Shown: in pieces, positions 1,363 through 33,200 of the stretch
Position numbering within the stretch: the first letter of the stretch is position 1
Layout: each line of letters begins with the position of its first letter
NCBI GenBank assembly: GCA_019359125.1
Contig: JAHHHY010000002.1
Location: 372,001 to 436,000, forward strand
Length of the DNA: 64,000 nucleotides
Source of the DNA: Pleurocapsa minor GSE-CHR-MK 17-07R
GTDB lineage: Bacteria > Chloroflexota > Anaerolineae > Aggregatilineales > Phototrophicaceae
Direction of reading: 5' to 3'
Notes under the pieces: model-generated
Told to the model about the DNA's origin: nothing
Databases searched by the model: none
What the model saw: only the letters and a program-made list of their open reading frames with translations
Program-made: the position numbers and the translations under genes

Positions 1363-3618
1363 CTAGCCGCCCAGCTGGGCAAGCAGTTTACGATAGTCGT
1401 CCATGCGGTCCGGGTTGAGCGCGATGATCTGGCGGATGGTGCCGGCTGCCTCGCGGTGATTGCCCGCCTGAAGCTGAAGCTCGCCCAGCGCGTCCAGCTG
1501 CTTGATGGCATCCACGCGGCGCTGAAGCTGTTTGTAAATCGAGGCCAGGCGCGAGCGCAGTCCGGTATCCTGCGGATACACGGTCACCAGCTCCTCCAGC
1601 AGTTGCACGATGCGGTTGACCTGCTTCAGGCGCGCATAGATGCCCAGCAGCTTGTCCAGGCGGCGAATCGCCTCGATGGCGTTGCCCTGGCGATAATTCA
1701 GGTCCACCAGCATACGGTGCGCGCGCTCGTCTTCGGGCGCCAGCGCGATGATTTCCTCGTATGTCTTCTGCACGCGGCGCAGATCCAGGCGCGTCAGGTC
1801 GATATCGGCCAGGCGGTGCTTGATGCGCACGATCTTCTCGCTGGAGGCATTCACCTTGGTGGCGATACGCTCGGCCAGCGCGTAGGTATCGCGTGACTGC
1901 TCGAAATTGCCCAGCTGATGATGCGCGTCGGCCAGGTCGATGTACTGGTCCAGCACCTCGTCCCAGCGTTCCTCGCTCTCCAGCAGCTCGATCAGGCTTT
2001 CGCGTACCGCGATATCCAGCGGCGCACGCTCCAGCACTTCGGCCAGAATGCCCATGGCGCGGTCATTTTCGCCGCGTGCCATAAACGTCTTGGCGACCGC
2101 GTTGTATTTCTGGATGGCCTGGCGCACACGGCCCTCGCGCATCATGATTTCGGCCATGCGGATGTGGACGGGCAGGTAGGTGGGCGAGAACTCGACCGCG
2201 CGGTGCGCCTCGTCCATCGCCAGCACGAATAACCCCTGGCGCATGTAGCGGTCGATCAGCGTGACCGACTCGGTCAGCTTGTCGCCGCGCTCGGCAGCCA
2301 GGATATCCAGCTCACCCTTAATACCCTGTTCGCGGATGGTTTCCTCAATTTGTCGGCGCGACTCGCGCAGGCTGGTGCGCCATTCCTTGCCTTCCAGAAA
2401 GCTGCCCAGCCGTTTGGCGATGCGCTGCTGCACCTCGTCATTTTCGCGCACGATACCTTCGCGCAGTTCGCGCCACATGCCGATCAGGTCGATGGCATGG
2501 TCGGGGTCGATATTCATCGTCTCATCGACGGATTGCAGCGTGCGCAGCATGTTGTCGATGGCCTGGCGATGCTTGCCCAGCTTCAGGTACGCCTGGCCCA
2601 TGCCGTGCAGCGCGGCGCTCGTCATCTGCGGCACGCCTACGACTTTGTCCAGGCGTTTGAGGGCTTCCTCGTTGCGGTCGCGCTGAATCATCAGCCCGCC
2701 CAGATTCAGGCGCAGGGCCGGGTGATCGATACGGCTTTCAGCGCGCATGTAGGCTTCAATGGCCTGGTCGGCCAGGCCCTGGCGCTGCGCTTCCATGCCT
2801 GCCAGCAGATCACCCGTGGCATCGCCTGCGGTGCCTTCCATCACATAGATGGCCAGCGTGCCCATCGAGTCGCGCATGCCTTCGCCGATCGGGCCGAACG
2901 GGTCGCTCTCCACCGAGCCTTCGGTAAAGGCAGCATTGGCGGCCACTTTTGCGCGTTTCTGGTCTTTGTCAAATGAGTTCTGGCGGGCGGCGACGCGGGT
3001 GCCGTCTTCCTGCGGAGGCATGATGCGCCCGCCGCTTTCCAGCGCGCGCAGCGTATTCAGCACCTGCGCGTTGTTCTTGTCGATTTTCAGGGCGCGCTGG
3101 GCGGCCTTGATGGCGCGGTCATAGTCATTGGTGCGCTGGAAGTTATAGGCCAGCGCCAGGTATTCGTGGATGGCCTTCTTCTTGTCGCCGATGCGTTCGT
3201 AGGCCTGTGCCAGCTTGGCATGCACCGGCACCAGGCCGGGCGTCAGGTCGGTGGCGCGTTCCCAGTTGTCGATGGCTTTGTTCAGGTCGCGCTGCGTCAG
3301 GTAAATTTCGGCCACGTTGACATACTGCTGGGCGGCCTCGCGCAGGCGGCCCATGCGCTCCAGCACGTCGGCACTTTTTTCCAGTGGAATCGGGTCCTGG
3401 GGCGCCAGCTGGTGCGCGCGCTGATACACCTTGAGGGCGTCATCCAGGCGGCCGATTTCCAGCAGCCCCAGCCCCAGGTGCAGATGCGCCTCGGCGTCAT
3501 CGGGGAATTCGACAATGGCGCGGCCGTAATTCGCCACCGCGGTCTGCCAGTCTTGGTCCCAGGCGGCACTGTGGCCATTATTCATCGACTGTTCGTAGAC
3601 TTGACGATTGCCCGGCAT
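1363..3618 (-). CDS. Large tetratricopeptide-repeat protein
   Basis: About 751 residues with no signal peptide, so probably cytoplasmic. Residues about 15-195 form an array of canonical TPR helices (DAEAHLHLGLGLLEIGRLDDAL and following repeats). A charged linker of about 70 residues follows, then further TPR arrays at about 265-370 and 480-750. I prefer ATG 3618 because GGAGT lies 8 bases upstream. A GTG three codons earlier is also possible. It sits 15 bp ahead of cdaA on the same strand, so it may belong to the c-di-AMP operon as a scaffold. No partner or activity can be read from the sequence. Confidence 0.8.
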   Translation of the reverse strand: MPGNRQVYEQSMNNGHSAAWDQDWQTAVANYGRAIVEFPDDAEAHLHLGLGLLEIGRLDDALKVYQRAHQLAPQDPIPLEKSADVLERMGRLREAAQQYVNVAEIYLTQRDLNKAIDNWERATDLTPGLVPVHAKLAQAYERIGDKKKAIHEYLALAYNFQRTNDYDRAIKAAQRALKIDKNNAQVLNTLRALESGGRIMPPQEDGTRVAARQNSFDKDQKRAKVAANAAFTEGSVESDPFGPIGEGMRDSMGTLAIYVMEGTAGDATGDLLAGMEAQRQGLADQAIEAYMRAESRIDHPALRLNLGGLMIQRDRNEEALKRLDKVVGVPQMTSAALHGMGQAYLKLGKHRQAIDNMLRTLQSVDETMNIDPDHAIDLIGMWRELREGIVRENDEVQQRIAKRLGSFLEGKEWRTSLRESRRQIEETIREQGIKGELDILAAERGDKLTESVTLIDRYMRQGLFVLAMDEAHRAVEFSPTYLPVHIRMAEIMMREGRVRQAIQKYNAVAKTFMARGENDRAMGILAEVLERAPLDIAVRESLIELLESEERWDEVLDQYIDLADAHHQLGNFEQSRDTYALAERIATKVNASSEKIVRIKHRLADIDLTRLDLRRVQKTYEEIIALAPEDERAHRMLVDLNYRQGNAIEAIRRLDKLLGIYARLKQVNRIVQLLEELVTVYPQDTGLRSRLASIYKQLQRRVDAIKQLDALGELQLQAGNHREAAGTIRQIIALNPDRMDDYRKLLAQLGG

Positions 3619-24039: not shown

Positions 24040-24050
24040 GGGGTAGGGTG

Positions 24051-25082
24051 ATGTCGGCATTCGAGTGGCTGACGGGCAATCCAAAGAAACGCAGGTCGAA
24101 GTATTCGGAACTGGATTTTTTCGCCCCGCCTTTCAGGGGCATCCTGCATCCCGACAACTGGTGTGAGGTACCAGGCGGGGAAGCCCAGCTTGGCCTGACG
24201 CCGGAACAGGCCAAGAAAGTGTGGCTGTACTCGCCTGAGGGCAAGACTGAAAATGAGATGATCCAGGCGATGCAGGATGAAGTCGAGGCCGATATCCGAA
24301 ATTCAAAACACGACACCTCATGGCTGGAGAAGTCGATTCCCTACAACCTGGTTTCGTCCGGATTTAACTATTCGCCGATTCCTGCGCGCATAGTCACGCT
24401 GCCCACGTTCTATATATCGCGCTGCCAGATTACAGAAATGCAGATGCGCGACTTCATAAGATACGAAATGCCTGCGGAACAGATTCGCGGCATTACGGAT
24501 CTGCCGCGTCTGCGACGATGGCGTTTTTCACTGCGGGATAATTGGTCGATCCAAAGCAGCCGCGAGCCGTTCAGGTTAGGATCTCGCAGCGAAGTCTTCG
24601 CCTTCTGCGAGCACATCGGAGCGCGCCTGCCGACTGCTGATGAGTGGGAAAAGGCGGCCAGAGGCACGGATGGCCGCCTGTATCCGTGGGGCGATGAATG
24701 GGATGAATCGCGCGGATTCTTCTATTACGACCAGCCGCTGCCGGATGATATTGATCCCATCGATAGTAATGCGGTTGATGCTTATCCTCGTGGTGCCAGC
24801 CCATACGGTGTATTGGGCATGGCAGGTGGATATTCAGAGATGGCCTTTGTGGAGCGCAGTGCCGAGTCGGAGTATCTCGTAAATGGGGAGTGGCTGAGCA
24901 TTGGGGTAAAAGGCTGCCACCGCAGGGATGGTGATGCTTCCCGGGCTCATATTCAGCACCTGGTAGCGAACAAGGGGCACAGGTCATTTAAATGGGTCGC
25001 TTTTCGACCGATGCTTGAAAAGTGGCCGCGCCAGCAGTGGCGTGGCGTTGATGCTGCGCGCACAGCAGGCCCTGAATCATGA
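24051..25082 (+). CDS. FGE-sulfatase (SUMF1) fold protein, first tandem copy
   Basis: 343 residues from ATG 24051 (a GTG one codon earlier is possible; GGGGTAGGG upstream). The N-terminal 110 residues contain [19 protein letters not shown] and a long insert. The FGE-sulfatase core follows ([57 protein letters not shown]). The canonical RGGSW and paired catalytic cysteines are missing, so formylglycine synthesis is doubtful and a binding role is likelier. It is 11 bp after the flavoprotein and overlaps the next gene by ATGA. Confidence 0.87.
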
Positions 25083-26104
25083 AGCTGACGGGCAAACCCC
25101 AAAAGCCCAGCCCGACATATTCGGAACTGGATTTTTTCGCCCCGCCTTTCAGGGGCATTCTGCATCCCGACAACTGGTGTGAGGTTCCAGGCGGAGAAGC
25201 CCAGCTTGGCCTGACGTCGGAACAGGCGAAGAAGGTATGGCTGTACTCGCCTGAGGGCAGGACTGAAAACGAGATGATCCAGGCGATGCAGGATGAGGTC
25301 GAGGCCAGGATCCGAAATTCAAAACACGGTACCGCATGGCTGGAGAAGTCGATTCCCTACAACCTGGTTTCGTCCGGATTTAACTATTCGCCGATTCCTG
25401 CGCGCATAGTCACCCTGCCGACTTTCTACATGTCGCGCTGTCAGATTACTGGCAGGCAGATGAGCGACTTTATGAAGTACCAAATGCCTGCGGAACAGAT
25501 TCGCGGTATTACGGATATGCCACGGTTGGTGCGATGGCGTCAGCACACATGGGGCAAATGGTCGATCTTCAACACGCGCAATCCTTTCAATGTGACCAAT
25601 ATTCACGAGGTCTTCGCCTTCTGCGAGCACATTAGAGCGCGCCTGCCGACTGCTGATGAGTGGGAAAAGGCGGCCAGAGGCACGGATGGCCGTCTGTATC
25701 CGTGGGGCGATGAATGGGACGAATCGCGCGGATTCTTCTATTACGGCCAGCCGCTGCCCGATGATATAGATCCCATCGATCGTGATGCGGTTGATGCTTA
25801 TCCTCGTGGTGCCAGTCCGTATGGTGTCTTGGGCATGGCTGGCGGGCTGCCAGAACGCGTATACGATAGCCCTAAAGGCGGTTATCCGCAGTATCTTTTG
25901 CATGGTGCGCGTTTTAGCGGGGGTTTAAAAGGTTTTCACCCTAAGGAATCAAGTGCGTCCCTCGCTCATCATCACCATCTGGTCGCCAATCGAAACGATC
26001 AGACCTGGATTTGGGTCGCTTTTCGACCGATGCTCGAAAAGTGGCCGCGCCAGCAGTGGCGTGGCGTCGATGCTGCCGCGCCACCGGCCGCCAGACCTGA
26101 TTAG
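25079..26104 (+). CDS. FGE-sulfatase (SUMF1) fold protein, second tandem copy
   Basis: 341 residues. It is nearly identical to the upstream copy over residues 10-115 and about 185-255. It is strongly divergent at about 125-180 and 255-315 ([15 protein letters not shown] against [14 protein letters not shown]), including a one-codon length change, then identical again at [22 protein letters not shown]. This copy also lacks the catalytic cysteines. It is coupled to copy one by ATGA and forms one operon with the cNMP flavoprotein. Confidence 0.87.
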
Positions 26105-26143: not shown

Positions 26144-26950
26144 TCATGATGCTGCCGGCGGATACTGCGCATCTGCAAAGGCGTATTGGTGGTAGGCCTG
26201 CACCAGGTTGTCGCGAACGACGTTATAGTAGCAGTCATCACCGCCCCCAAAAGGCAGCAGGACCAGCGGTTCGCTGATTTCGCGCTCCCTCAGCGTCCAG
26301 CCTTCGGGCAGCACCGGCCCGGTCACATCAGGCGTGCCTGTAGCCGTGGCATGCATGACATACAGATTCCCCTCTCCGTCTGACAGTTCATAGATCACGG
26401 GTCCGTTGTAGATGATGCGGTGACATTTGGCGATCGTGTTGATGCTGACATAGCCGGGATTCACCACGTCGCGCGAGCAGCCAGACGCATCCGGGAAGCA
26501 CGACTGGCCCGCTATCGTCGTGAGTTTGAGCCAGGAATAGCCGACCACCTCTTCGATGGTGAAGCAGGCATCGCCTGCACAGTCCGCATCAACATCCGGC
26601 GAACGGAAAAAACACGAGCCGTTGAACAGCAGATTGCGTGTCGAATTTTGCAGCAGCGGCAGGCGGAACGTGAAGTTCGCCCACACGTCATCGGGCATCA
26701 CATTGGGCCCGCCAGCGACATAGATATCGTCTGTTTCCAGGTTGATGAATTCTTTGGCGACGCCGGGGCTGTCTTCATTTCCACCCGCGCACGATGCCCC
26801 TTCCGGCATGGCTGTCTGCACGGTTGCGAAAGAGATTTCGAGCGGCTTCGGCGCAATCAGGTTGTTGATATAACTGAAGACCAGCACGGCGGCCACGATG
26901 ATGACGGCCAGCACCGTGCCGATGATGATGAGCAGATTGCGTTTTTTCAT
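26144..26950 (-). CDS. Membrane-anchored extracellular protein with an unnamed C-terminal domain
   Basis: 268 residues. A lysine-arginine start and one hydrophobic helix (6-30) anchor an outside domain with many cysteines. The C-terminal part (IYELSDGEGNLYVMHA, then PVLPEGWTLREREI, then a D-NLVQAYHQY end) aligns by eye with the C-terminus of the next gene (FTLTSPEGDVYAMQS, LSLPEGWTYQAVRL, DDFLNTYQRI). Shared ancestry is likely. Function unknown. It is downstream of that gene on the same strand, 101 bp away. Confidence 0.7.
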   Translation of the reverse strand: MKKRNLLIIIGTVLAVIIVAAVLVFSYINNLIAPKPLEISFATVQTAMPEGASCAGGNEDSPGVAKEFINLETDDIYVAGGPNVMPDDVWANFTFRLPLLQNSTRNLLFNGSCFFRSPDVDADCAGDACFTIEEVVGYSWLKLTTIAGQSCFPDASGCSRDVVNPGYVSINTIAKCHRIIYNGPVIYELSDGEGNLYVMHATATGTPDVTGPVLPEGWTLREREISEPLVLLPFGGGDDCYYNVVRDNLVQAYHQYAFADAQYPPAAS

Positions 26951-27051: not shown

Positions 27052-28554
27052 CTACAAAGCCACATTTGGCAGTGGGATACGAATGCGCTGATAGGTGTTC
27101 AGGAAATCATCCTGGACGATAGTGGTTTCACCGCCAGACAACAGGAAGTAGTCCTGTGCCAGACGCACGGCCTGGTACGTCCAGCCTTCCGGCAGGCTCA
27201 GTCGCTCTCCCAATGATTCGAGCGCATCGATCGTCAGCGTCGGGTCGATGATCTGCGCGAACGACTGCATGGCGTACACATCGCCTTCAGGGGATGTGAG
27301 CGTGAACATCAGCTCGCCGGCATAGAACACATAGCGGGTATCGCGCTGCACGGTATTCGGGCTATACAACTGGTCACCCACCAGGTCTCCACGCAGGCGC
27401 GTTTCCAGAATGGCGCGCAGCGTCATGTCGATGCTGCCGAAGGTGGCCTGTTCTCCCGTGGCGGTCACGCCACCCAGAGCGGCGATTTCATCGATGACCC
27501 AGTAACGCGGCCCGTTCAGGCGCACATTGACTGCTCCCAGTTGTGTTTCCAGTTCGGGCGCATCCAGCGCATCCCATGCGTCCTGCGGGCAGTCGTTCAG
27601 GCCCAGCGTGTTCCAGATTTCTGTGCGCAGGGTGATGCCGCTGCGGTACGTGGGCACCACCTCGCAGTAGCGCACATTACGCACCTGCTGCGACATCAGC
27701 GTGCTGTCTGGTTGCACGGATACGATTGTTTCGGGGTTGAGGGTGTCCTGATTGGGGTCATACAGGTGCCCGGCCGGGAAATAAACGGTTTCCGGCTGGC
27801 CGCCCACGTTCAGGCAGAGCAGATGATTGTTGTCACCGTCGCCCAGGTCGGCCAGTGCAAACGGCGTGGCTTCCACCACGCTGCCGTCGTGCTGGCGTAG
27901 CGCAACCCGATATAGCAGGCGCTCCGGTTCGCCCGCTTCTTCGCCGTCGGCATTGCTGACACCGCCCGCCCAGGTGGCGCGCACAATCTGCATCGTGCCT
28001 GCGGATGGGCAGCCAGTCCCCTGCTGGCGTCCTGAGCCCCGGTCGAGCATCCACTGTGAGGCGGGCACCGATTCGGCGACGATCAGCGTCGGCCCGGACG
28101 ACAATGGCGTCACTTCGACGCCCGCACCCATGAAGTTTGCGCCGTCGCTGCTGGCCAGCAGATCATCGACCACATCCACGCGCACGGGCGGGTCATTTTC
28201 AGCACTGCCGAATTCGCCAATCAGCAGCACGGTGCGCAGTTCGCCGGCATCGACCGCCGGGCTAAGCGTGACGCAAAACGGCGTGCTGATATTGCCTGAC
28301 GCTGTGGTAACGGCAAAATCGGCAGCATCCAGCGTGTCCGGGTCGATCACCTGCGACAGGATTACCGGCATGCCGTCCTGGTTTCGTGCGCCCAGACACA
28401 GACCATTGGCGCCGAGGGGGAGGGCATTGTCCAGACCATAGAATGCTGATAACAGCGTCGCTGCTGGGGCAGTATCGCCCTGAGCACCAGCCATGCTGAT
28501 GGATAAGAACGAGACAAGTGTGGCGCACGACAGCGCCGCGATGTGTTTCCTCAA
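27052..28554 (-). CDS. Large secreted protein with the same unnamed C-terminal domain
   Basis: 500 residues. The signal peptide MRKHIAALSC...SMAGAQG is cleaved after AGA at about residue 24. The N-terminal 260 residues are beta-rich with scattered cysteines (NGLCLGARNQDGMPVILSQVIDPDTL). The C-terminal 220 residues share the LPEGW-containing domain of the adjacent membrane-anchored protein. No enzyme motif is seen. It is transcribed divergently from a TetR gene across two 15-bp palindromes, so that regulator probably controls it. Confidence 0.75.
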   Translation of the reverse strand: MRKHIAALSCATLVSFLSISMAGAQGDTAPAATLLSAFYGLDNALPLGANGLCLGARNQDGMPVILSQVIDPDTLDAADFAVTTASGNISTPFCVTLSPAVDAGELRTVLLIGEFGSAENDPPVRVDVVDDLLASSDGANFMGAGVEVTPLSSGPTLIVAESVPASQWMLDRGSGRQQGTGCPSAGTMQIVRATWAGGVSNADGEEAGEPERLLYRVALRQHDGSVVEATPFALADLGDGDNNHLLCLNVGGQPETVYFPAGHLYDPNQDTLNPETIVSVQPDSTLMSQQVRNVRYCEVVPTYRSGITLRTEIWNTLGLNDCPQDAWDALDAPELETQLGAVNVRLNGPRYWVIDEIAALGGVTATGEQATFGSIDMTLRAILETRLRGDLVGDQLYSPNTVQRDTRYVFYAGELMFTLTSPEGDVYAMQSFAQIIDPTLTIDALESLGERLSLPEGWTYQAVRLAQDYFLLSGGETTIVQDDFLNTYQRIRIPLPNVAL

Positions 28555-28721: not shown

Positions 28722-29339
28722 ATGACGATCAATCGAGATGACCCGCGCGTGCGCAGGACGCGCCGTGGCTTGCAGGAAGCCTTTGTGCGATTGATTCTGA
28801 AACAGGGCTACGACAGCGTGTCGATACAGGATATTGCGACGGAAGCGGAGATGGCGCGCATCACGTTTTATCGCCATTACCGCGACAAAGAGGAACTGCT
28901 GACGGACTGCCTGAATACGCTGTACGAGGAACTGATCGCTCGCACCGAGCACTTCTCTCCGCAGGGGCTGGCCGCCGGTTACTCACCCGTGCAGGTCCTG
29001 TATGAACACATGCAGGAGCAGGAGGCATTGTATCGCGTGCTGTTTTCCAGCCGTGGCACGCAAACAGTGATCGAGCGCCTGCGCCACCACATTGCCGGCA
29101 AGGCCATGGAGGCCATCCGCGCGACGGGCCGCCAGCCCATCGGCGGTCTGCCCGTGGAACTGATTGCCTATCATGCGGCCAGCGCCCAGATCGGCCTGGC
29201 GATGTGGTGGCTGGATCAGGGCAAGCCATATCCGGCAGACTACATGGCGCGAATGTCGCTGTGGCTGTCGCTGCGCGGGTTTCTGGCGGCTGTTGGTGTG
29301 ACGGAATACCAGCCGCCTGTGCCTACACTGGAAATTTGA
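28722..29339 (+). CDS. TetR family transcriptional regulator
   Basis: 205 residues. The N-terminal HTH is clear (RRTRRGLQEAFVRLILKQGY, VSIQDIATEAEMARITFYRHYRDKEEL). The helical C-terminal domain resembles TetR_C regulators of the YxaF/DhaS type. The start is at ATG 28722, preceded by further dyads (GTTACTTATGTAAC at about 28691-28704). It is divergent from the 500-residue secreted protein and probably represses both. Ligand unknown. Confidence 0.9.
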   Translation: MTINRDDPRVRRTRRGLQEAFVRLILKQGYDSVSIQDIATEAEMARITFYRHYRDKEELLTDCLNTLYEELIARTEHFSPQGLAAGYSPVQVLYEHMQEQEALYRVLFSSRGTQTVIERLRHHIAGKAMEAIRATGRQPIGGLPVELIAYHAASAQIGLAMWWLDQGKPYPADYMARMSLWLSLRGFLAAVGVTEYQPPVPTLEI

Positions 29340-29399: not shown

Positions 29400-30014
29400 T
29401 TAACTGGGCCGGGCTTCGGCACGAATCAGCGGAACCTGGAGCGCTGTCGGGCGATTGACCGGATCTTCCAGGCCGCTGCCGTCCAGCGGACGGGCGCCCG
29501 CAAACAGGAAGTCACCGATTGGCAGCGTGATATCATGCTCCGTAAAGGGAACCTCAAGGCCGAACAGGCTGCACCCGGTCGCGCTGATATCCAGCTCGGT
29601 TTCCGTCACCCATACCTCGGTGCCACAGGTGCCGGCTTCGGCGCTGTTCAGGAAGCCAGTCATGTCATCCACCAGCGGCGTAAAAGTGACGCGTTCGCCA
29701 GAGAAGTCGGTTGCACGGGCCATGGCTGGTGCCTCAACCGGCTCCCCAAACAGGATCGGACCCTCGATATGCAGCACAATTGTGGGGATGGTGCAGGCCG
29801 GATCGGCGTAAATGATGATGTCACCGACCCATGAATCTTCTGCAAAGGTGAAGTCGCGGGTCAGATACTGCGGCCCAGGGCGCAGCTCGCACGTGATGCT
29901 GACCCACTGGCCAACCGGAGCTTCCTGAGCCTCTTGTGCGGCCGCAGGAAGAATTCCGATAGCCACGACAGCCAATACCAGCACTGCAAAACAGAGACGA
30001 CGCAAATTAGACAT
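29400..30014 (-). CDS. Secreted APCDD1-like domain protein
   Basis: 204 residues from ATG 30014, with GAGGAAAGC just upstream. The signal peptide is cleaved after AAA at about residue 26. The mature part reads like one APCDD1 repeat of vertebrates: GQWVSITCELRPGPQYLTR, then a Y-DPAC--P segment, TPLVDDMTGFLNS, GTCGTEVW, GCSLFGLEVPFTEHDI, and a FAGARPLDGS...RPTALQVPL end. These match, in order and spacing, my memory of the human APCDD1 domain. That protein is a lipid-binding Wnt antagonist. Here it is probably an exported small-molecule or lipid binder. Confidence 0.75.
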   Translation of the reverse strand: MSNLRRLCFAVLVLAVVAIGILPAAAQEAQEAPVGQWVSITCELRPGPQYLTRDFTFAEDSWVGDIIIYADPACTIPTIVLHIEGPILFGEPVEAPAMARATDFSGERVTFTPLVDDMTGFLNSAEAGTCGTEVWVTETELDISATGCSLFGLEVPFTEHDITLPIGDFLFAGARPLDGSGLEDPVNRPTALQVPLIRAEARPS

Positions 30015-30154
30015 GCTTTCCTCGAACCTTTCCTCATCGCTTGACTTGTTGCCGGGCGACTGCTCGACAATCTGATAGTAGCCCTGGCACAATATAGCCT
30101 CAATGTGAGAACGTATTCTTTTTTTATCCAGGCGTCTGAATTTGGGAGCTAGAC

Positions 30155-31948: not shown

Positions 31949-33109
31949 TTACTGGCCGGGCTGGCTGACGATGCCGATTTGTCCCCGGCCATAGCGGGTG
32001 CCCAGGTACAGGCGTCCGTCGTGCGGCACGACATTGCTGATGCCGCCGTTGAAGATGCGCTGCGAGTCATACAGCGCATGCATGATCTCGCCCTGTTCGC
32101 TGATGCCCAGCACCAGGCCGTGGTTCTCGCCGCTGGTCATCGCCAGCAGCAGGTCATCGGGCAGCTTGCTCATCTGGTCGATCATGAAGGGCAGTGTGTG
32201 CATCAGGTCGAGGGTGGTGGTGCGCGGGCTGCCCATCGACGCCCAGATGGTGCCAGCGTCGTCAGACATGATGCCATCGGGCAGGCCGGGCAGGTTGTCG
32301 ATCAGCACGTCCGACGAACCCGCCTGCGGGCCGGTCAGCCAGTAGCGCGTGATGCGATAGCGGGCCAGCTCGGCCACCAGCACGGCGCTTTCGTCCTGCG
32401 TCAGCGTCACGCCATTGGCGAAATACAGGTCATGCAGCAGCACGCGGGTCTCGCCTGTCGCCGTGTCATGCGCCAGCAGGCGGCCGTTCGGTCGGCCTTC
32501 CATCGTGTCGCGGACAGGATTGGCGCCCACGTTATCGAAGCGGCTGCTGGCGTCCGAGAAGTAGATGGTGCCGTCGCTGGCGATATCCAGGTCGTTGGTG
32601 AAATGCAGGGGCTGGCCGGCCGCTTCCGTCGCCAGCACGGTGACTTCTCCATTTGCATCGAAAGAGAGCAGGCCGCGCAGCGCGTCAGCCACGATCAGGC
32701 TGCCATCCGGGGCGAAACGCATCCCCAGCGGGTTGCCGCCTGTGTTGGCAAACACGGTGAACTCCGGCTCGCCCTGACCAGATACCTCAGCGCGCAGGAT
32801 GTCGCCGTTGCGCACGCCGGTGTACAGCAGGCCATCCGGCCCGAAAGCGATGTCTTCCGGCTCGTGCAGCAGGCCGACGCCGATCAGCCGGGCATCGTCC
32901 AGCGCCGTGTTTGGCGCCAGCATGCCAACGCGTTCCGGTATGGCAGGCGCAGCCCAGGCGACGGCCGAAGTGGGCGATGGCAGCAGCACATAGCCAAGCG
33001 TGAGCAGCAGCGCGGCCGCGCCGATGATGAGTGCGATGCGGCGCCAGCCGAACATGCGCTTGTGAGGGGTCGTGAGGGCGGGTGAGACGGCGGACAGGTG
33101 AGCGTTCAT
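31949..33109 (-). CDS. Membrane-anchored SMP-30/gluconolactonase-like beta-propeller
   Basis: 386 residues from ATG 33109, chosen for AGAGGAAATCC directly upstream. One membrane helix (about 22-45) anchors an extracellular six-bladed propeller: EDIAFGPDGLLYTGVRNGDIL, GMRFAPDGSLIVADALRGL, NDLDIASDGTIYFSDASS, GIMSDDAGTIWASMGSP. This resembles SMP-30/strictosidine-synthase-like lactonases, with metal-ligand positions in the EDI, NDLDIA and D-G segments. Substrate unknown. A palindrome 48 bp upstream is shared with the TetR gene. Confidence 0.87.
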   Translation of the reverse strand: MNAHLSAVSPALTTPHKRMFGWRRIALIIGAAALLLTLGYVLLPSPTSAVAWAAPAIPERVGMLAPNTALDDARLIGVGLLHEPEDIAFGPDGLLYTGVRNGDILRAEVSGQGEPEFTVFANTGGNPLGMRFAPDGSLIVADALRGLLSFDANGEVTVLATEAAGQPLHFTNDLDIASDGTIYFSDASSRFDNVGANPVRDTMEGRPNGRLLAHDTATGETRVLLHDLYFANGVTLTQDESAVLVAELARYRITRYWLTGPQAGSSDVLIDNLPGLPDGIMSDDAGTIWASMGSPRTTTLDLMHTLPFMIDQMSKLPDDLLLAMTSGENHGLVLGISEQGEIMHALYDSQRIFNGGISNVVPHDGRLYLGTRYGRGQIGIVSQPGQ

Positions 33110-33156
33110 GGATTTCCTCTTTGATTTCATGTCATCTGATAAACTATAGTAATTTG

Positions 33157-33171
33157 TTGAACAGTGTTCAA
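33157..33171. promoter_or_regulatory. TetR operator before the propeller gene
   Basis: TTGAACAGTGTTCAA is a near-perfect 15-bp palindrome. The same sequence except the centre (TTGAACACTGTTCAA) lies before the tetR gene at 33865-33879. An identical dyad at both promoters is strong evidence for one regulator acting on both. Confidence 0.85.
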
Positions 33172-33200
33172 TTCTACGCAAAAAAAGAGACTGATTCCCG

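Follow-up and report, generated by a model that had tools for sequence, protein, structure and literature searches.

A probably exported single-barrel protein of Chloroflexota related to the lipid-binding half of the animal Wnt inhibitor APCDD1

The closest described relative of the protein reported here is one half of APCDD1, a Wnt inhibitor of animals made of two beta-barrel domains, ABD1 and ABD2. In the mouse protein, lipid occupies the pocket of ABD2 (about 350 cubic angstroms), stearic acid being the most prevalent species extracted, and the ABD1 pocket is almost closed (about 35 cubic angstroms); binding of WNT7A by APCDD1 is weakened by detergent (PMC10193966). Three intradomain disulfides are described for ABD1, and two intradomain disulfides plus an interdomain one, Cys52-Cys466, for ABD2 (PMC10193966). 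Passages of the same structure paper speak of Metazoa and of lipocalins as weak structural homologs with 5-10% identity, and report that the two domains could not be produced separately (PMC10193966). APCDD1 has also served as bait for binders (PMC11107207). In 2025, Wnt proteins were reported to be part of a superfamily also present in bacteria and archaea (PMC12419801, PMC12445918); a text search of the main text of PMC12419801 returned no mention of APCDD1.

The window (the whole stretch of 64,000 nucleotides that was analysed) contains an ORF beginning with an ATG at position 30014 and encoding a single-barrel protein of the APCDDC family with 204 residues, which we named P0001 (Table 1). 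Its N-terminus includes a hydrophobic stretch within residues 1-29 (maximum Kyte-Doolittle value of 2.92) and ends, as judged by eye, with the signal-peptidase site pattern AAA/QEA. Beyond residue 29 no hydrophobic segment was found, hence no C-terminal transmembrane span. As the sole strongly hydrophobic segment lies within residues 1-29 and the AAA/QEA site is present, P0001 is most likely a soluble exported protein, in agreement with the initial annotation, which had considered it exported. Contamination with animal DNA was considered but is improbable, given that bacterial genes surround the P0001 gene on a contig of 769,663 bp and that relatives occur in other assemblies, among them a 4.67-Mb single-contig genome (G684).

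Table 1. Coordinates of the P0001 gene, its parts and neighbouring genes in the window, and of one related open frame in another genome
Feature	Position	Strand	Basis or remark
Gene, secreted single-barrel APCDDC-family protein P0001	29400..30014	-	translation; PF14921; mouse ABD2 match
Putative signal peptide covering residues 1-26, with AAA preceding the cleavage site	29937..30014	-	by eye; hydrophobic stretch
APCDDC barrel domain (residues 34-199), of the same extent as mouse ABD2	29418..29915	-	sequence and model matches; C42, C74, C130, C148
Probable ribosome-binding site GAGGAAAGC, immediately 5' of the ATG	30015..30023	-	sequence only
AraC-family regulator with Cupin_6 domain, divergent from the P0001 gene	30155..31078	+	Pfam Cupin_6 2.4e-43, HTH_18 7.2e-20
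Strictosidine-synthase-like/SMP-30 beta-propeller, two genes further on	31949..33181	-	Pfam Str_synth 3.3e-25, SGL 9e-16
TetR gene	28722-29339	+	adjoins two export-signal-like genes
Export-signal-like protein genes	26144-26950, 27052-28554	-	no Pfam match at E<=1
G823, APCDDC-like stretch followed by SMP-30-type (SGL) propeller, one open frame	L028 622-1881	-	

The Pfam profile APCDDC (PF14921) matched P0001 with 58 bits (cut-off 27, E 1.2e-15) and was the sole Pfam family to do so at E<=1, its alignment spanning profile positions 24-139 of 232 only. When 177,635 distinct PDB sequences were searched with phmmer, two matched P0001 at E<=10, both of them APCDD1. Residues 34-199 align with chain positions 269-443 of mouse APCDD1, corresponding to ABD2, with an i-E of 5.5e-20; the match to mouse ABD1 is weaker, and its first part aligns (i-E 3.5e-5). 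A profile built from six bacterial rows, aligned over its positions 28-198, retrieved ABD2 with an i-E of 2e-35 and ABD1 with 1.6e-13, the only two unrelated sequences in its listing having E values of 0.71 and 0.86. As a control, the Pfam APCDDC profile was run against 14 well-known genomes, none of which matched. Taken together, the E values of the Pfam, PDB and bacterial-profile searches rule out chance or an artefact of the motif comparison. Over 166 columns P0001 shares 33.7% identity with mouse ABD2; the two mouse barrels share 32.1% over the 112 columns covered by a partial ABD1, their full halves being about 25% identical (PMC10193966).

The initial annotation had listed a series of APCDD1 motifs in this protein. 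All of them (WVSITCELRPGPQYLTR, YADPACTIP, TPLVDDMTGFLNSAEAGTCGTEVW, GCSLFGLEVPFTEHDI and RPLDGSGLEDPVNRPTALQVPL) occur in order, each aligned with mouse ABD2, and the APCDD1 domain proposed for a bacterial protein of 204 residues was borne out by both Pfam and PDB searches, with four matching cysteines. Its likeness to APCDD1 stands with the refinement that P0001 is closer to ABD2 than to ABD1, and the proposed single-domain bacterial version is one member of a scattered Chloroflexota family with several forms. P0001 is genuinely related to the lipid-binding half of APCDD1, and the bacterial and animal domains descend from a common ancestor. With mouse ABD2 (8E0P, 8E0R, 8E0W) it shares the full-domain match, the four cysteines, the predicted fold and a probable extracellular location; mouse ABD1 belongs to the same fold family, with a much weaker similarity. 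It differs from mouse APCDD1 in being bacterial, with no Wnt, and in having one barrel and neither interdomain cysteine nor transmembrane segment. As it is devoid of two barrels, of the interdomain cysteine and of an anchor, we do not file P0001 as an APCDD1 protein: it is a member of the APCDDC domain family, in a new bacterial branch with new architectures. Among the matches listed in the open-access literature, no paper describing bacterial APCDDC members was found; since the Pfam score of P0001 exceeds the cut-off, proteins of this kind may already carry a label in automatic databases.

A structural model of P0001 was obtained with AlphaFold2 from six bacterial sequences (mean pLDDT 83.2, pTM 0.76). 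When the model was compared with the PDB by Foldseek, eight matches were obtained at E<=0.001, all of them APCDD1 chains (TMq 0.71-0.73, E 2.3e-14 to 1.4e-12); likewise, a model of the G825 relative matched only APCDD1 chains at this threshold. VIA alignment of the P0001 model with three APCDD1 entries in the ABD2 region gave Z values of 19.9-20.6 over 173-177 residues, so that the comparison with the APCDD1 barrel, also put forward by the initial annotation, gave a match. The corresponding rmsd of 5.1-5.4 A is high. The orientation of a helix-loop element differs by about 30 degrees between ABD1 and ABD2 (PMC10193966), which suggests that this element is mobile and may contribute to the high rmsd.

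The entries ranking next in the VIA comparison were VtrC (Z 10.4, 118 residues aligned) and ToxS (Z 8.7), in a range where middling Z values are generally common. These Vibrio periplasmic barrels (5KEW, 5KEV, 8DML, 8ALO, 8U2F; Z 7.7-10.4) are the nearest structures other than APCDD1, with 6-9% identity to P0001 over 112-125 aligned residues, and a phmmer search of the PDB at E<=10 revealed no sequence link to them. According to PDB entry titles and abstracts, VtrC was solved with bile salts, and both proteins make up one half of a heterodimer, the other half being a membrane regulator. Lipocalins and fatty-acid-binding proteins (calycins) hold a hydrophobic ligand in a beta-barrel, as APCDD1 does; the P0001 model aligns with nitrophorins, an engineered lipocalin and CRBP with VIA Z values of about 5-6. 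No Pfam lipocalin match to P0001 was obtained at E<=1, in a search whose filters drop most matches above 0.1.

The mouse ABD2 stretch includes five cysteines, four of which align with C42, C74, C130 and C148 of P0001. These four intradomain positions are occupied by cysteine in all 12 complete secreted bacterial domain rows, which belong to 11 proteins. In the two non-exported rows all four are absent, that is, both members of each expected pair are gone together, and in the open part of the G823 sequence C130 and C148 are retained, the C74 position being occupied by Thr. As this presence and absence fits the pairing C42-C74 and C130-C148, we infer that P0001 would form these two bonds. The fifth ABD2 cysteine, located in PLVQC, aligns with Ala in P0001. 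Taking into account the chain order, from which its number was deduced, this residue should be the interdomain Cys466, which is useless to a single barrel.

Wnt signalling is not known from bacteria; hence, if the bacterial family is the older one, the Wnt role would be secondary. Considering the similarity to ABD2, we think it probable that P0001 works outside the cell much as a lipocalin does, holding a ligand about the size of a fatty acid. Once exported, the protein would fold as one ABD2-type beta-barrel braced by disulfides, and the barrel would accommodate, outside the membrane, a single hydrophobic molecule comparable to a fatty acid in size, or else the acyl chain of a bigger molecule. 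In a lipocalin-like manner, P0001 might then buffer, carry or present the held lipid. A pocket open like that of ABD2, disulfides that form, the kind of ligand and holding as the function itself are all presumed here by analogy with the mouse domain.

ABD1 shows that the same fold can exist with a nearly closed pocket, and P0001 could accordingly be an ABD2-homologous barrel with no open pocket, acting, as ABD1 might, as a structural or protein-docking module of the bacterial surface. The C-terminal hydrophobic segment of several relatives would suit display as well as carriage. Against such a module stands the much closer match of P0001 to ABD2 than to ABD1, both in the direct search and in the search with the bacterial profile; the ABD1 branch is long in both trees described below, and this may explain part of the gap. 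On balance we regard a closed module as unlikely.

The nearest structures outside APCDD1 being VtrC and ToxS, a ligand-sensing subunit that reports an outside lipid or bile-like compound to a partner protein was also considered. The P0001 gene is divergent from the gene of an AraC-type regulator, with which it has a 140-base intergenic region in common, and the G825 form is divergent from a TetR. It is possible that the AraC-type regulator controls the P0001 gene. In the intergenic region a single promoter site and a single terminator site were predicted, about the level of shuffled sequence, and repeats are limited to one 8-base direct repeat, with no inverted ones. A sensing subunit is nevertheless highly improbable: hydrophobic segments are absent from P0001 beyond its signal peptide, the window neighbours that were scanned comprise neither a VtrA- nor a ToxR-like membrane regulator, identity to VtrC is 8-9%, and a middling Z is common. 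The extracellular lipid holder remains our preferred reading of P0001.

Members of the family were found in 15 Chloroflexota genomes, namely G000 (the window genome), G034, G170, G252, G403, G424, G668, G684, G708, G757, G774, G823, G825, G858 and G877, which span several families of the phylum. Genomes with a member numbered two of 101 relatives, five of 400 drawn phylum-wide (again 5/400 with another profile), 9/396 in the class and 4/100 among relatives of G170; further draws gave 3/130, 1/130 and 6/300. These draws overlap and all lie within Chloroflexota, and misses are possible, since for many genomes the candidates scored were at most 7 (the 9/396 draw and the second 5/400 draw), 10 (6/300), 21 (3/130 and 1/130) or 27 (4/100). 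The family is patchy and rare in Chloroflexota, with the genus of G684, Ca. Roseilinea, being a dense spot (8/9 genomes). A scan of genome contigs with one peptide pattern returned 37 stretches, six of them relatives (Herpetosiphonaceae, Thermoflexales, Anaerolineae, Ca. Roseilinea); these groups belong to Chloroflexota in the three cases checked at NCBI, and the scan missed both the window genome and G034. The window genome has its phylum in common with G170 and its class in common with G403, G252, G774, G708 and G757. The Pfam APCDDC cut-off is also passed by the G170, G034, G403 and G877 proteins. The G825 protein (L027) falls below it (E 0.11), and the family may therefore be under-counted in databases. 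A search of NCBIfam at E<=1 left P0001, L027 and the G034 protein without a match and yielded chance-level matches only for L005 and L004.

A mobile origin was examined as well. Neither P0001 nor L027 nor the G034 protein had a tblastn match in plasmids, L005 had none in phages, and PHROGs gave none for P0001 and L027, so plasmid and phage origins were both set aside. Pattern scans of viral contigs (17 and 27 pattern matches) confirmed no relative, and a BFVD search gave no match at E<=0.001.

The bacterial members show several architectures. P0001 and the G877 protein are secreted single barrels, the latter matching mouse ABD2 with an i-E of 2.1e-22 and 38.4% identity over 164 columns. A single barrel followed by a C-terminal hydrophobic segment is found in G170 and in seven intact copies of the Ca. 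Roseilinea genus (the segment is present in G170, G684, G757, G668, G403, G252, G774 and G708); animal APCDD1 is also anchored via a C-terminal span. In G170, LPSTA precedes the segment, and Pfam Gram_pos_anchor matches with an E of 0.005, below its cut-off. An eighth copy in the Ca. Roseilinea genus, that of G424 (L007 1381-2309 (+)), is split over several frames, the seven others being free of internal stops. G034 encodes a tandem two-barrel protein of 373 residues with six cysteines per barrel, a form that rests on one short 3.1-kb contig of an 85%-complete assembly. Finally, the G858 and G825 proteins have neither a hydrophobic N-terminus nor any of the four cysteines; they are 44% identical to each other and match the bacterial profile with E values of 8e-25 and 2e-22. 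The loci of these non-exported forms are L026 1504-2085 (-) and L027 1357-2058 (+).

A shared operon was looked for and rejected, as the neighbours examined differ between genomes and define no consistent pathway except within the Ca. Roseilinea genus. There, among eight genomes with the family, the gene is divergent from that of a MacB/FtsX-type permease in 5/5 loci examined (G403, G252, G424, G684 and G757, with Pfam confirmation for G684 only). In G170, the anchored APCDDC gene is immediately preceded, on its own strand, by that of a GT2 family glycosyltransferase (L034 696-2033 (+)).

Beta-propellers of the SMP-30/strictosidine-synthase kind recur near some family members, which raises the question of whether the barrel feeds or docks a hydrophobic substrate to such a hydrolase. 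In G877, an SMP-30-like propeller gene (L053 2179-3423 (-)) is directly followed on the same strand by the APCDDC gene (1498-2118 (-)); in G823, a single frame comprises both an APCDDC-like stretch, with the extra cysteines of the G034 type, and an SGL propeller. In the window, the propeller two genes further on has one hydrophobic segment near its start and is, by context, a possible functional partner of P0001; the window genome has three SGL matches at E<=0.001, a count that gives no fair background, as the G877 and G823 propellers are both absent from the SGL matches of that search. The pattern was, however, noticed post hoc, and several points weaken it. The G877 propeller lies just under the Pfam SGL cut-off (25.2 vs 26.3 bits), and its sole PDB relative at E<=0.01 is 9m58, an entry named SodC. 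These propellers fall into distinct subfamilies (9m58 and 2p4o being the best PDB relatives; BLASTP E 0.006 and 0.76), two of them being weak SGL members. The G823 frame is broken upstream, where another frame contains what resembles a lipoprotein start, so that the gene is broken or mis-assembled there. No propeller of this kind is present among eight scanned neighbour proteins of G170, G684, G757, G858 and G825. We therefore consider a propeller partnership very unlikely.

For the descent of the family, trees were built with mouse as the sole animal and with ABD1 partial; their deeper order is poorly supported. Bacterial C-terminal tails were cut, the G825 start was trimmed, G424 (whose gene lies in several frames) was left out and G823 was represented by its open part only; a reduced tree omitted G823 and ABD1, and one alignment splits G034 into its two domains. 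The two mouse barrels are each other's partners in each of the trees that include both (87/91 and 85/84), below the star threshold. The two domains of G034 are placed with G823 (90/96, then 84/76) and, once G823 is omitted, with each other (99/98), which makes separate origins of the bacterial and animal tandem barrels probable. An AU test with ABD1 constrained to the first G034 domain did not reject this grouping (p 0.239), so that an old duplication may instead be shared. The non-exported pair groups with P0001 (89/92 in the 85/84 tree, 78/70 in the reduced tree), and the form devoid of the four cysteines may thus be derived rather than ancestral.

Secreted barrels of P0001, G170 and G877 share 40-44% identity with one another, and single barrels are 30-38% identical to mouse ABD2. 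The variety seen within Chloroflexota speaks against a recent acquisition from animals and for the age of the family there. The evidence tends to favour an old bacterial family and a two-barrel animal protein that would have arisen by duplication of one such domain. A fuller scenario, which we put forward as tentative, is that the Wnt inhibitor APCDD1 descends from old bacterial lipid-holding barrels of extracellular location: one ABD2-like domain would have reached animals and been duplicated there, ABD2 keeping the ancestral open pocket and ABD1 losing it, and anchored, tandem and non-exported versions would have evolved independently in bacteria. A third, unsampled source of the APCDDC barrel is also conceivable.

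The opposite direction, in which Chloroflexota took the gene from an animal after the two-barrel APCDD1 had formed and kept ABD2 alone, has several observations on its side. Bacterial rows are nearer to ABD2 than to ABD1, spread is patchy, and an AU test placing ABD2 with P0001 and G170 apart from ABD1 gave p 0.074, which does not reject that grouping firmly. Within the genus of the window genome, the two export-signal-like genes and the TetR gene are colinear in G012 (66-71% protein identity, 70-73% DNA identity), and this synteny ends just before the P0001 gene: right after TetR, the G012 sequence continues with another ORF, of 664 codons, and the 10.5 kb examined there contain no barrel. 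The other 14 genomes of the genus have no Pfam APCDDC match. The break in G012 and these 14 genomes indicate that the P0001 gene was gained or lost within the genus. On the other hand, bacterial sequences are nearly as distant from each other (G877-G170, 40.4%) as from mouse (G877-ABD2, 38.4%); P0001 is closer to G170 (44.0%) than to ABD2 (33.7%), and the rows with none of the four cysteines are 25-32% identical to P0001, G170 and G877. Moreover, a six-cysteine tandem form exists, and ABD1 and ABD2 pair in both trees. We judge the transfer from animal to bacteria decidedly unlikely.

These relatives give animal APCDD1 kin outside animals and a wider history for its fold, and they provide a way to ask what the fold binds apart from Wnt. 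If the bacterial ancestry set out above is true, the bacterial single barrel would show the ancestral ligand. A natural single-barrel version may also solve the problem of producing the domains separately, and the bacterial APCDDC barrels parallel the report of Wnt-superfamily members in bacteria and archaea.

Minor observations concern the genes on the TetR side of P0001. The match of the 500-residue neighbour protein in G012 covers its first 283 residues only, and the C-termini of the two export-signal-like proteins look alike by eye. Farther out, two overlapping tandem genes (24048-25082 and 25079-26104 (+)) appear very similar by eye, the first of them encoding an FGE-sulfatase domain (2e-19).
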